Positions 30,936-36,330 of a DNA stretch of 64,000 nucleotides are shown here, one piece after another. The notes below the pieces were generated by a model. It did not search any database. It worked only from the letters and a program-made list of their open reading frames with translations, and was not told the origin of the DNA. The stretch lies in the NCBI GenBank assembly GCA_021850485.1, contig JAJZLY010000008.1:271879-335878 (forward strand), given 5' to 3'. The stretch's first letter is position 1; every line of letters begins with the position of its first letter. The position numbers and the translations under genes were made by a program. Source of the DNA: Bacillota bacterium. GTDB lineage: Bacteria; Bacillota; Sulfobacillia; JAJZYS01; JAJZLH01.

Positions 30936-30953
30936 CTTCAGCGTGTCGCTAGG

Positions 30954-31043
30954 TCAGGTTTGCCGCCTATTCGCTTTCGAGATGGCGCCAGTAGCGCGCG
31001 AACGTCCTGTGCCATCAGCACTGACGTCCATGATGATGCCCAC
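30954..31043 (-). CDS. Small ORF (29 residues) upstream of the ABC exporter
   Basis: A short frame starting at GTG 31043 with AGGAGG (31056-31051) 7 bases upstream, the best-placed ribosome-binding site nearby. The product begins G-I-I-M-D-V-S-A-D-G and ends K-A-N-R-R-Q-T, is hydrophilic and basic at the C-terminus, and has no signal peptide or membrane span. It has its own promoter (31093-31121) and is followed by a strong hairpin, so it forms a complete mini transcription unit. It may be an attenuation leader peptide, an exported peptide precursor, or part of a small RNA. Not recognised. Confidence 0.5.
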   Translation of the reverse strand: MGIIMDVSADGTGRSRATGAISKANRRQT

Positions 31044-31830: not shown

Positions 31831-31867
31831 AGCAGTGGCCGCACTCGGCAGGCGTGCGGCCACTGCT
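31831..31867 (-). terminator. Terminator of the Sec thioredoxin-like gene
   Basis: A 14-bp perfect stem (31831-31844 with 31854-31867) over a 9-base loop, followed on the minus strand by a T-rich stretch. It lies 25 bases past the stop codon at 31892. Confidence 0.75.
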
Positions 31868-31891: not shown

Positions 31892-32473
31892 CTAAACCTG
31901 GGCGAAGCTCCCTTTCTCCCACCAGATGGTGTCTCCGTATGTCTGCTTCAGCACGCGCCAATTGGCCAAAAAGCGGTCGCGATCGCCGGCTCGCAACGCC
32001 GCCACACCGGACCAGAACTGGCCTTCGGCCGCCTGGATGAGCCCCGGCCACCGCGCTACCACGTCCAAGAAGGCCATCTCTGCCGCCTGGTACTCAGCAT
32101 GAAACAACTTGGCTTGGGCATCTGCCAGGGCCATCTCGGCCTGCAAACTAGAGGGCGCCACGTAGCCGACCGAGCGCCTGAGCTCCACGCCGTGGTGGTC
32201 GAACCAGACCAAAAGCGGCGTCCAGACCAAGCGCAGTTCGCGCATCGCAACCTTGGCCAGGTCATCGGGCTCGGCGGTGTTGATCTGCACCGCCACCGCG
32301 TACTTGGCAATCGAGTCTTGGACCTCTTTGACGGGATACGTAGCCGCATCCATCTTGGCGCAGCCGCCTCAGCCCGGGTTTTTCAGCATGTCCACGAACA
32401 AAAGTTTGGCGCTAGCACGAGCCGCCTGGCGGCCTGCCTCCAGCGTGGGGAGCCAATCGATCCCTTCGCTCAT
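31892..32473 (-). CDS. Thioredoxin-like selenoprotein (UxxC) with helical C-terminus
   Basis: 193 residues if TGA at 32371-32369 is read as selenocysteine. ATG 32473 has GGAGG 8 bases upstream; the 34 codons before the TGA are in frame with a good thioredoxin-like N-terminus (L-L-F-V-D-M-L-K-N-P-G), and the TGA falls exactly at the first redox cysteine, giving U35-G-G-C38-A-K-M-D. After it come the thioredoxin cis-Pro region (W-T-P-L-L-V-W-F-D) and a TPR-like tail (E-Y-Q-A-A-E-M-A-F-L). A hairpin with SECIS-like position follows the TGA (32342-32365). It probably reduces a disulfide, peroxide or other oxidised substrate in the cytoplasm. A nonsense mutation is the alternative, made unlikely by the second Sec-type gene at 54.6 kb. 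Confidence 0.82.
32342..32365 (-). promoter_or_regulatory. Candidate bacterial SECIS hairpin (thioredoxin-like gene)
   Basis: Starting 3 bases after the TGA on the minus strand, GGCTGC (32365-32360) pairs with GCGGCT (32347-32342) including two G-U pairs. An inner GCC/GG-x-U helix closes the loop A-A-G-A-U. The loop G is about 15 bases from the UGA, at the short end for bacterial SECIS elements. Confidence 0.45.
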
Positions 32474-32539
32474 CTCAAGATACCTCCTGCCAGCAGGGTC
32501 TTCCATTAGCCTATCACTTTATTTTTCATAGTGCAAAGG

Positions 32540-34189
32540 TCACATCCGGTCCGGTGCGCTCACCCCGAGCAGGGCCAGGCTCTCTTTGAGCACCGACCCG
32601 ACTGCTCGGGCCAGGCGGCGGCGGGCCAAGGACAGCGGCTCAGGAACGCCCAGTACCCGGTGGCGATTGTAAAAGGCGTGAAACTCCTGGGCCAGGGTCA
32701 TGGCGTAGTGGGCGATGTGGTGGGGAGCACGGGCGGCTGCCGCATGGGTGAGTTCTTCCGGGAAAGAGAGCAGGCGGCGGGCCAAGAGCAGTTCCTCGGG
32801 CTCGGTCAAGAGCAGCAGGTCACCTGAGCCTGCGGCTGCACCCTGGCGGAGCAAAGACGCGATGCGGGCATGGGCGTACTGGACGTAGTAGACCGGGTTT
32901 TCCTGCGATTCGCTGACCGCCAGCGCCAGGTCGAAATCGAGCGGCGAGTCTGGCGAGCGCAGCAAGAAGGTGAAGCGGGCACTGTCCACCCCTACCTCTT
33001 TGAGGAAATCCGCGATCGGCACGAAGTCGCCCTCGCGCTTGCTCATCGCCACCAGCTCACCTTGGCGCAGCAGCCGGATCCACTGCACCAGCACCACTTC
33101 GAAACTCTCGGCCGGCTTGCCGGTGGCGGCCACCGCCGCTCGCATCCGGCCCAGATAGCCATGATGGTCCGGGCCGAGCACGTCGATCAGGCGGTCAAAG
33201 CCGCGGCTGTACTTGTCCCAGTGGTAGGCGACGTCGGCGGCGAAGTAGGTGGGGGTGTTGTCTTTTCGCACCACCACCCGGTCCTTGTCGTCGCCGAAGG
33301 CGGTGGTGCGCATGAAGCGGGCGCCGTCTTGGCTGTACAGCACGCCCTGACGCTCCAGTTCGGCCAAGGCCGCCTCCACCCGTCCGGCCGCCCTCAGGTC
33401 TTGCTGTTCGCTGAAGTAGCGGTCAAAGCGCACGCCGTACGCCAGCAGGTCGCGCTCTCGCCAGCGGCCGATCAGATCCACCGCAAACTGAGAGAGCATC
33501 GAGATGGCAGCACCCTGATCCAGGCCAAAGAGCGCTTGTTCACCGCGCTCGGCCAAAAAGGCCTGGGCGATCTCGCGGACGTAGTCGCCCTTGTAGCCGT
33601 CTTCTGGAAAGGGCACCGCCGCTTGTTGATCCTTGACCAGCCAGTAGTAGACGGTTTTGCCCAAGGCCTCCACCTGGGTGCCGGCGTCATTGACGTAAAA
33701 CTCGCGCCACACCTGATGCCCGGCGGCCGTGAGCAAGCTGGCCAGAGCGTCACCGTAGGCGGCTGCTCTGGCTGACACGACGTTTAGCGGACCGGTCGGA
33801 TTGGCCGACACGAACTCGACCAAGATCCGCTCGCCGCTGCCGGCTGTCTCCTTGCCATAGTCGGCGCCGGCCGCTTCCACTGCCTCGATCGCCGCTGCAC
33901 AGGCCTGAGGCGCCAAAAAGGCGTTCAGGAAGCCAGCTCCTGCCACCTCGATGTGGTCGAACCAGGGATCAACCTGCACCGCGGCCATAAGCTCAGCCGC
34001 CACCTGCTTGGGCGGGCGCTTGAGCGTGCGGGCCAACACCAGCGGCCAGTTGGCCGCCAGATGGCCGTGTGACGGGTCATCTGAAATCTCCACCGAAAAA
34101 GCCGGCAGCGCTCCCTCAGGCCAGCGGCCGTCTTTTTGCAAGCCAGACGCGGCCTGTTCCAGAAGGCGGGTCAGATGGCTACGCAACAT
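32540..34189 (-). CDS. argS: Arginyl-tRNA synthetase
   Basis: 549 residues. The N-terminal Add-1 domain precedes the catalytic core, whose HIGH-type motif reads S-A-N-P-T-G-P-L-N-V-V. The KMSKS-type loop reads V-A-M-S-K-R-E-G, and the C-terminal DALR anticodon-binding domain includes Y-V-Q-Y-A-H-A-R. It charges tRNA-Arg. Its start overlaps the end of the agmatinase-family gene by 11 bases, making it the last gene of an arginine/polyamine operon. Confidence 0.97.
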   Translation of the reverse strand: MLRSHLTRLLEQAASGLQKDGRWPEGALPAFSVEISDDPSHGHLAANWPLVLARTLKRPPKQVAAELMAAVQVDPWFDHIEVAGAGFLNAFLAPQACAAAIEAVEAAGADYGKETAGSGERILVEFVSANPTGPLNVVSARAAAYGDALASLLTAAGHQVWREFYVNDAGTQVEALGKTVYYWLVKDQQAAVPFPEDGYKGDYVREIAQAFLAERGEQALFGLDQGAAISMLSQFAVDLIGRWRERDLLAYGVRFDRYFSEQQDLRAAGRVEAALAELERQGVLYSQDGARFMRTTAFGDDKDRVVVRKDNTPTYFAADVAYHWDKYSRGFDRLIDVLGPDHHGYLGRMRAAVAATGKPAESFEVVLVQWIRLLRQGELVAMSKREGDFVPIADFLKEVGVDSARFTFLLRSPDSPLDFDLALAVSESQENPVYYVQYAHARIASLLRQGAAAGSGDLLLLTEPEELLLARRLLSFPEELTHAAAARAPHHIAHYAMTLAQEFHAFYNRHRVLGVPEPLSLARRRLARAVGSVLKESLALLGVSAPDRM

Positions 34190-35039
34190 GTCCTGGGCCC
34201 GCTGCCAAGATGATCAAGAGCTCACGCACGGCCTTGGCCGCCAACACGGCGGTGATGCCAGAGGGGTCCAGTTGCGGGGCGACCTCGACCAGGTCCATGC
34301 CCACCCAGTTGAAGCCACTAAGCTGGCCCAACAGCGCCTCCCACTCCTGCCAGGAAAAGCCGCCCGGCTCTGGCGTGCCGGTGCCGGGGGCGAAGGCCGG
34401 ATCAAAGCCGTCGATGTCCAAGCTCAGATAACAAGCACCATCGCCGATCAGCCGGCGGGCCTCCGCCATCCCCTGCGGCGTCACCGGCAGGCGGTGGGTA
34501 AGCGGCCATTCGTCTTTGTCGGCGGAGCGCACGCCGAATTGCAAGACCCGGCCCGGCCCGATGATGTCCAAGATCCGCCGCATGACGGTGGCGTGGGACA
34601 AGGACTCGCCTTGAAAGGTGTCTCTGAGGTCGGGGTGGGCGTCGAACTGGACCAGCCAGAGATCCGGGTGGCGCTTGGCGAGGGCGCGCACCGGCGCCAG
34701 CGAGACCAGGTGTTCACCGCCCAGGCCAAAGGGGATCAATCCCTGGTCCAAGATGCCGTCCACAAAGCGCTCGATGCCCAAAAGGGCGGCCTGAACACCG
34801 CCAGCCGGCACCACCAAATCGAGGGCGTCCCAGATCGCCTCAGCCGACACCTCTTGGCCCTGAGCCGGCGAGAACAGCTCCAAGCCGTAGGTGGCCTCGC
34901 GGATCGCCTGCGGTCCGAACCGGCTGCCCGGCCGAAAAGAGGCAGTGCCATCGAAGGGCATGCCGTAGACCGCGATCTGACTTCGCTCTGGGCTGCCTGC
35001 GGCAAACAGCATGCCCGGCTGGCGCGGTGTGACGTTCAT
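34179..35039 (-). CDS. speB: Agmatinase / aminopropylagmatine ureohydrolase family protein
   Basis: 286 residues of the arginase/ureohydrolase fold with the manganese ligands in G-G-E-H-L, F-D-A-H-P-D-L-R-D and S-L-D-I-D-G-F-D-P. It releases urea from agmatine or from N1-aminopropylagmatine. ATG 35039 overlaps the speE stop by 4 bases. With PvlArgDC and SpeE upstream it completes a route from arginine to putrescine or spermidine; whether ureohydrolysis comes before or after aminopropyl transfer cannot be read from sequence. Confidence 0.9.
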   Translation of the reverse strand: MNVTPRQPGMLFAAGSPERSQIAVYGMPFDGTASFRPGSRFGPQAIREATYGLELFSPAQGQEVSAEAIWDALDLVVPAGGVQAALLGIERFVDGILDQGLIPFGLGGEHLVSLAPVRALAKRHPDLWLVQFDAHPDLRDTFQGESLSHATVMRRILDIIGPGRVLQFGVRSADKDEWPLTHRLPVTPQGMAEARRLIGDGACYLSLDIDGFDPAFAPGTGTPEPGGFSWQEWEALLGQLSGFNWVGMDLVEVAPQLDPSGITAVLAAKAVRELLIILAAGPGHVA

Positions 35040-35863
35040 CGCAACAGCTCTTGGACGAAGGGCGGCAGGGCAAAGGCAGCCTGGTGCACGGCTTTGGTGT
35101 AGTAGCGGCCAAGCGGCTCTTGGCGAGGCTGTGGGGTCAGGTCGCCACCGCCATATCCCACGGCGTACGACCAATAGCCAGACGGGTAGGTGGGGGCAGG
35201 CCCGGTGTAAAGCGCCACCTCGGGGAAGCACTCCTTTAGTCCCAGATAGGTGCGGCGCAGCACATCGGCATTGACCAAGGGCGACTCCGCCTGGCAGACG
35301 GCGATGCCGCCAGGGCTGAGCGCGCGCTGCAAGTCAGAGAAAAAGGGCTTGGCGAATAGTCCCTCGGCCGGCCCCACCGGGTCGGTGGAGTCGACCAAGA
35401 TCACATCCCACTTAGAGGTGGCGCCCGCCACCAGCTCCACGGCGTCTTGGTGCATGATCTTGGCTCTGGGGTCGTCCAGGGAGACGGCCAGGGTGGGGAA
35501 AAAGTCGCGGGCGGCGTCGGTCACCCGCTGGTCGATGTCGCACAGCCAGGCCTCTTCTACCTCCGGATGCTTGAGCACCTCGCGCAAGGTGCCACCGTCA
35601 CCACCACCGACGATCAGCACCTGCTTGGGGCCCGGGTGGGCCATCAGCGGCACGTGAGCCAGCATCTCGTGGTAGAAGAACTCGTCTTTTTCGGTGACCA
35701 TGAAACAGCCGTCCAAAAACATCACATGGCCAAAGGCTTCTGTGTCGACCACCAACAGGTCCTGATAGGCGGTGCGCTCGCGGCGCAGCACCGAGCGCAC
35801 CCGCAGGCCAAGCCGCAGATCGGGTGTCTGCTCCTCATCCAGCCACAGCTGGTCTCGCTTCAT
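35036..35863 (-). CDS. speE: Spermidine synthase family aminopropyltransferase
   Basis: 275 residues with the polyamine synthase Rossmann core: G-G-G-D-G-G-T-L-R-E binding decarboxylated S-adenosylmethionine, and the I-L-V-D-S-T-D-P-V-G-P-A acceptor/catalytic loop. The N-terminus has W-L-D-E and the L-F-L-D-G-like F-L-D-G-C. ATG 35863 is preferred because homologous-looking sequence begins there. It lies 5 bases downstream of the arginine decarboxylase gene and overlaps speB by 4 bases. No S-adenosylmethionine decarboxylase gene is in the window. Confidence 0.92.
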   Translation of the reverse strand: MKRDQLWLDEEQTPDLRLGLRVRSVLRRERTAYQDLLVVDTEAFGHVMFLDGCFMVTEKDEFFYHEMLAHVPLMAHPGPKQVLIVGGGDGGTLREVLKHPEVEEAWLCDIDQRVTDAARDFFPTLAVSLDDPRAKIMHQDAVELVAGATSKWDVILVDSTDPVGPAEGLFAKPFFSDLQRALSPGGIAVCQAESPLVNADVLRRTYLGLKECFPEVALYTGPAPTYPSGYWSYAVGYGGGDLTPQPRQEPLGRYYTKAVHQAAFALPPFVQELLR

Positions 35864-35868
35864 CTGGA

Positions 35869-36330
35869 CTACCCCCACAGGCAGACTGCGGCGAAGGCGC
35901 AACCGCAGGACACGACATGGTGCTCCGCTGACTTGACCAGCACCCGGCTGAGGGCAAGCCCGCGCACCAAAAAGCCCTCCTCCAGCATCTTCCGGATGCG
36001 GGCCTCGGCTTCCTGGGCCGATCCCAAGAAGGCGGTCTCCATGATCAGTCCGAAGGCGCCTGGTTCGCCAAACCCGATGCCCACTGCCGCTGCGATCTGC
36101 TCGCCAGGCGTGGTCGAGGAGATGTGGCCGTAGGCGGTGGGCAGCAGGCTGCCGGGGGCGATCGCCAAGGACATCGCCTGCTCGGCACCGGGCGGCAAGA
36201 TGGAGCTGACCCGGATCAGATTCATGTTCCCGCAGCCGGCTGCCAGCAGTGCGCCATCAAAGGCGTTTAGGGCCGTTTCACCCTCCGACGAGGCAGCCAC
36301 CATGGTGAAGCGAGTCGGCGTTTGCAGCAA
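35869..36330 (-). CDS. Pyruvoyl-dependent arginine decarboxylase
   Basis: 153 residues. The self-cleavage site is in N-L-I-R-V-S-S-I-L-P-P-G: cleavage between S42 and S43 turns S43 into the pyruvoyl group and yields beta and alpha chains. The enzyme decarboxylates arginine to agmatine. The start is TTG 36330 with AAAGGAAG 9 bases upstream, giving M-L-Q-T-P-T-R-F as in family members. First gene of the operon PvlArgDC-speE-speB-argS, behind a perfect TATAAT (36378-36373). Confidence 0.92.
   Translation of the reverse strand: MLQTPTRFTMVAASSEGETALNAFDGALLAAGCGNMNLIRVSSILPPGAEQAMSLAIAPGSLLPTAYGHISSTTPGEQIAAAVGIGFGEPGAFGLIMETAFLGSAQEAEARIRKMLEEGFLVRGLALSRVLVKSAEHHVVSCGCAFAAVCLWG

Follow-up and report, generated by a model that had tools for sequence, protein, structure and literature searches.

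A predicted UxxC thioredoxin-like selenoprotein with a TPR-like C-terminal region in a little-studied lineage of Bacillota

A list of 119 prokaryotic selenoprotein families (PMC13188914) includes, as a predicted family, 'thiol:disulfide interchange protein, PF13098, UxxC', with WP_011366075.1. Here we describe a gene whose product likewise has a PF13098 domain with a UxxC motif; compared with that family by domain and motif description only, the protein differs in having an additional TPR-like C-terminal half. Judging from the sequence, the gene very probably encodes a thioredoxin-like protein containing selenocysteine (Sec), and the usual annotation would truncate it at its in-frame TGA.

The gene lies in a 64,000-nucleotide stretch of DNA, hereafter the window (G000:C2:271879-335878), from a genome of 1.61 Mb that is 97% complete. 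The reading frame 32473-31892 on the reverse strand comprises 194 codons, with a single in-frame TGA at 32371-32369, and translates as MSEGIDW...KNPG-U-GGCAKMD...SFAQV followed by TAG, the TGA thus falling within the motif PGUGGCAKMD. An earlier note on this DNA had described 34 codons before the TGA, 158 sense codons after it, the TAG stop and a ribosome-binding site, all of which we verified: AGGAGG (32488-32483) stands 9 nt ahead of the ATG, and GGAGG is also found 5' of the start codon in the congeneric homologues of G012 and G013. The terminator that the note had placed after the gene fared less well: the inverted repeat is perfect over 14 bp (fold z = -3.5), but there is no clear T run and a terminator scan made no call there, leaving a possible terminator devoid of a T run. 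A comparable hairpin lies 3' of the homologous gene in G012.

Table 1. Features of the predicted selenoprotein locus (window coordinates)
Feature	Position	Strand	Remarks
Predicted selenoprotein gene	31892..32473	(-)	ATG 32473-32471, Sec codon TGA, stop TAG 31894-31892; 193 residues
Shine-Dalgarno AGGAGG	32483..32488	(-)	9 nt 5' of ATG; read directly
Predicted Sec35 codon TGA, first position of UGGC	32369..32371	(-)	TGA in 9/9 Sec-type members, Cys in 8 distant ones
Cys38, putative resolving residue of UxxC	32360..32362	(-)	Invariant in alignment A2 and Cys-type members
Codons 36-47, overlapping RNA constraint	32333..32368	(-)	No substitution of any kind among three congeneric species
SECIS-type stem-loop	32334..32351	(-)	6-bp stem GGAUGC/GUAUCC, loop GGCUAC
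Thioredoxin-like domain (PF13098, residues 29-112)	32138..32389	(-)	Above Pfam cut-off; DsbD C-terminal domain structures matched
Pro86 of WTP	32216..32218	(-)	Invariant in alignment A2
TPR-like C-terminal region (residues 119-181)	31931..32119	(-)	Weak YbgF match; TPR structures matched by profile
Perfect 14-bp hairpin 3' of stop codon	31831..31867	(-)	Inverted repeat 31831-31844 / 31854-31867

Nine genomes from five families have the same TGA conserved at the same site, even where protein identity falls to 25%, which is far beyond chance; each Sec-type homologue has exactly one in-frame TGA, at the site of Sec35 in the window protein. Besides the window gene, the set comprises genes from two congeneric species (G012 and G013, 83-85% identity), from a single genome in a second family of the order (41%), from three genomes in a third family (47%), and from a single genome each in a fourth (37%) and a fifth family (25%). 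The earlier note had suggested looking at this position in Cys homologues, and Cys indeed fills it in eight distant ones, namely that of G090 (PGCSGC) and those of seven genomes of one genus, recovered by a profile search in the class. The tally at the Sec35 position is therefore nine TGA and eight Cys, with no other residue seen.

Sec and Cys forms cluster in the tree, which shows two label changes, and the Cys-type branch is strongly diverged. One Sec form (PGUSGC; G095, L031:210-767 (-)) groups with the Cys forms, although this position is unsure because the branches are long, and it retains a GGAUAC/GUAUCC stem; its grouping and its stem suggest that Sec may have been present early in the family. 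The genomes with the Cys form still have selA, so that this form is not accounted for by a lost Sec trait. In one genome of the third family (G086), which also still has selA, we noticed an apparent gene remnant (L060, G086:C14:76864-77181) that matches profile positions 85-192 and in which no active site was seen; it is perhaps a decayed copy. A single-sequence query of a 398-genome, phylum-wide sample returned no relatives outside the genus, and the plasmids searched gave none. As far as the searches made here go, the family appears restricted to one class of Bacillota.

All nine Sec genes carry, after the UGA, a stem of the form GGAU(G/A)C-6 nt-GUAUCC with all six pairs intact, in agreement with the selenoprotein reading of the earlier note. 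In the window gene this SECIS-type stem-loop starts 17 nt past the UGA and its loop lies 23 nt past it, the loop sequence being GGCUAC, as against CGUGAC in other families; the isolated stem-loop has an energy of -10.4 kcal/mol in the window gene and of -7.9 kcal/mol in other families. With this loop spacing, a G at the first two loop positions and this energy, the window element conforms to the bacterial SECIS model of PMC13188914, which constrains loop spacing, loop G and energy. When codons were resampled according to the usage of the respective genome, with the protein left unchanged, the stem arose in 2-7% of the draws for any one genome, and energies as low as the observed ones in 0.2-2.6%; these values are not to be simply multiplied, owing to the shared ancestry of the genes. 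Chance agreement of the stem is nonetheless very unlikely because the genomes span five families. The sole Cys homologue examined for the stem, that of G090, is without one. Among the nine Sec genes no pair changed on both sides, the single variable pair going from GU to AU; the support for the predicted stem is thus conservation against synonymous freedom, not compensatory change. Applied to the genome, the SECIS model yielded no second convincing site, the best other match having an E value of 0.11.

The genome also contains the Sec machinery that the earlier note had proposed to search for, with all four components present: selA (3.6e-124), selB (353 bits for a cut-off of 242), a tRNA-Sec(UCA) gene (72.7 bits, anticodon TCA) and selD, which adjoins selA. 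Judged by its gene content, the host uses selenocysteine. Note that selD (G000:C20, L001:372-1481 (-)) is itself a selenoprotein gene, since its frame, read through its own in-frame TGA, gives SGUGCK; usual ORF calling begins it at a later GTG, whereby the active site is lost. The selD TGA is followed by a hairpin with the loop GGA, although the whole 76-nt stretch examined folds no better than shuffled sequences.

The window protein scores above the Pfam cut-off of 27 bits for both PF13098 and PF13899 (30.0 and 29.2 bits) and has the active-site pair and the conserved proline of the thioredoxin fold, Sec35, Cys38 and Pro86 being invariant in alignment A2. By analogy with the fold family, Pro86 would occupy the thioredoxin cis-proline position. 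When the profile was compared with solved structures, residues 10-117 matched structures with the thioredoxin fold, C-terminal domains of DsbD among them, and residues from about 119 to 183 matched the TPR structures of CpoB and YbgF. The TPR-like tail reported in the earlier note is recognizable at the level of the family, six of whose ten members match TPR_16/TPR_6, but not in the window protein itself, for which the Pfam search gave no TPR match. An AlphaFold2 model built from three sequences only had a pLDDT of 44. No signal peptide is obvious in the sequence, and the protein is probably cytosolic.

Could the TGA be a genuine stop codon or a sequencing error, the locus then being a pseudogene or a pair of genes, one for a stub of 34 residues and one for a protein of 153 residues? 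A 153-codon ORF with an in-frame ATG at 32353 does exist downstream of the TGA. A start at this ATG would, however, remove the first strand together with the two residues of the active site, and the Cys homologues are one continuous protein. A stop or an error is also difficult to reconcile with the identical TGA found in nine genomes and with the selection acting on its two sides. Indeed, comparison of the window gene with its two congeners, G012 and G013, gave Ka/Ks values of 0.144 and 0.053 for the part preceding the TGA and of 0.144 and 0.131 for the part following codon 47; these similarly low values indicate that both parts are protein-coding under like constraint, i.e. that the UGA is flanked by coding sequence on either side. 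By contrast, none of the 12 codons from 36 to 47 is variable (hypergeometric P = 2e-5), despite a Ks of about 0.7 or more elsewhere, which points to an overlapping RNA signal. We consider a stop or an error very improbable. Some bacteria reassign TGA, and the frame is equally open if the codon is read as Trp or Cys, whether through code reassignment or by a suppressor tRNA. Yet argS in the window and the G013 homologue itself both end in TGA; since TGA is a normal stop elsewhere in the window, the code is not reassigned. Furthermore, the only tRNA with a TCA anticodon among those met in these searches is tRNA-Sec, and reassignment would leave the SECIS-like element and the Sec enzymes unexplained, making it less probable still. 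We rejected pseudogene, sequencing error and reassigned code alike.

From the UGA conservation, the Sec/Cys exchange, the Sec machinery, the stem-loop and the selection pattern, we infer that Sec would be inserted at this UGA. SelB would bring Sec-tRNA(UCA) to codon 35, guided by the downstream stem-loop; in the protein, Sec35 would act as the attacking nucleophile and Cys38 as the resolving residue, with Pro86 in the cis-proline loop. The resulting Sec-Cys selenenylsulfide cycle would most likely serve to reduce disulfides or, alternatively, a related substrate of the selenenyl or peroxide type, and the TPR-like half would probably bind a partner or the substrate. The protein is thus most likely a thiol:disulfide reductase, although for disulfide reduction as its main reaction our confidence is only moderate. 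A Sec protein with another function, e.g. as a peroxidase, in the delivery of selenium or as a TPR adaptor under redox control, is a less probable but still sizeable alternative: selenolates favour peroxide and selenium chemistry, and the Cys-type branch is strongly diverged. Against it, the closest profiles are those of the DsbD C-terminal domain and Thioredoxin_2/7, and the intact UxxC together with Pro86 is typical for disulfide exchange.

The genomic context gives no functional clue. The neighbours (argS, agmatinase, spermidine synthase and arginine decarboxylase upstream, an ABC transporter downstream) are shared within the genus only and differ in the other families, and the proposed reductase function is therefore deduced from the fold alone. 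In the window, a compact arginine/polyamine cluster immediately upstream (32540-36330 (-)) is made up of argS and the genes for agmatinase, spermidine synthase and a pyruvoyl-dependent arginine decarboxylase. On the other side, positions 30950-31040 (-) may encode a very small protein, MDVSADGTGRSRATGAISKANRRQT; GGAGG lies 5' of this ORF and a hairpin follows it. The ORF is present in a single copy in the genome, and short reading frames resembling it occur close to the selenoprotein genes of L010 and L011.

Finally, we compared the window protein with described families. None of the NCBIfam selenoprotein models came near its cut-off. The VPGUxxT family thioredoxin-like (seleno)protein type 2 (NF041383) is likewise thioredoxin-like, with Sec after PG, and all ten members of our family match it weakly (best 6e-10); we rejected this assignment, as the window protein scores 13.2 bits against a cut-off of 275 and has UGGC, not UxxT. 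The Trx7/PDZ domain-containing (seleno)protein (NF041199), weakly matched by four of the ten members, also combines a Thioredoxin_7 domain with an extra domain, but its listed motif is CxxU and its extra domain is PDZ, where ours is TPR-like. TsoB (NF045694), a rhodanese/DsbD fusion, was rejected as well (17.4 bits, cut-off 805). The C-terminal (gamma) domain of DsbD, among the closest solved structures, has the thioredoxin core in common with the window protein, which differs in being free-standing, without a membrane domain, and in having Sec for the first Cys and a TPR-like tail. Literature searches on selenocysteine in Sulfobacillus and on TPR selenoproteins yielded no title or abstract dealing with this protein.

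The architecture, which the earlier note had called uncommon, is so in that no curated NCBIfam model fits and that no fusion of thioredoxin and TPR-like parts appears among the 119 families of PMC13188914; the combination of PF13098 with UxxC, however, is already listed there. Many redox selenoproteins of bacteria are known already, and to these the protein adds a well-supported but fairly ordinary case, which leaves the general picture of Sec use in the bacterial selenoproteome unchanged. The family offers a natural Sec/Cys comparison, and the predicted partner-binding tail could be exploited to identify what a UxxC enzyme acts on. We class the protein as a newly recognized member of the thioredoxin-like selenoproteins with UxxC, and possibly as a subfamily of its own. 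We lean towards an undescribed subfamily, set apart by a predicted cytosolic thioredoxin domain joined to a putative partner-binding, TPR-like half, its apparent restriction, in these searches, to one class of Bacillota, the conservation of a SECIS-type element in five families and the existence of a distant branch with Cys.
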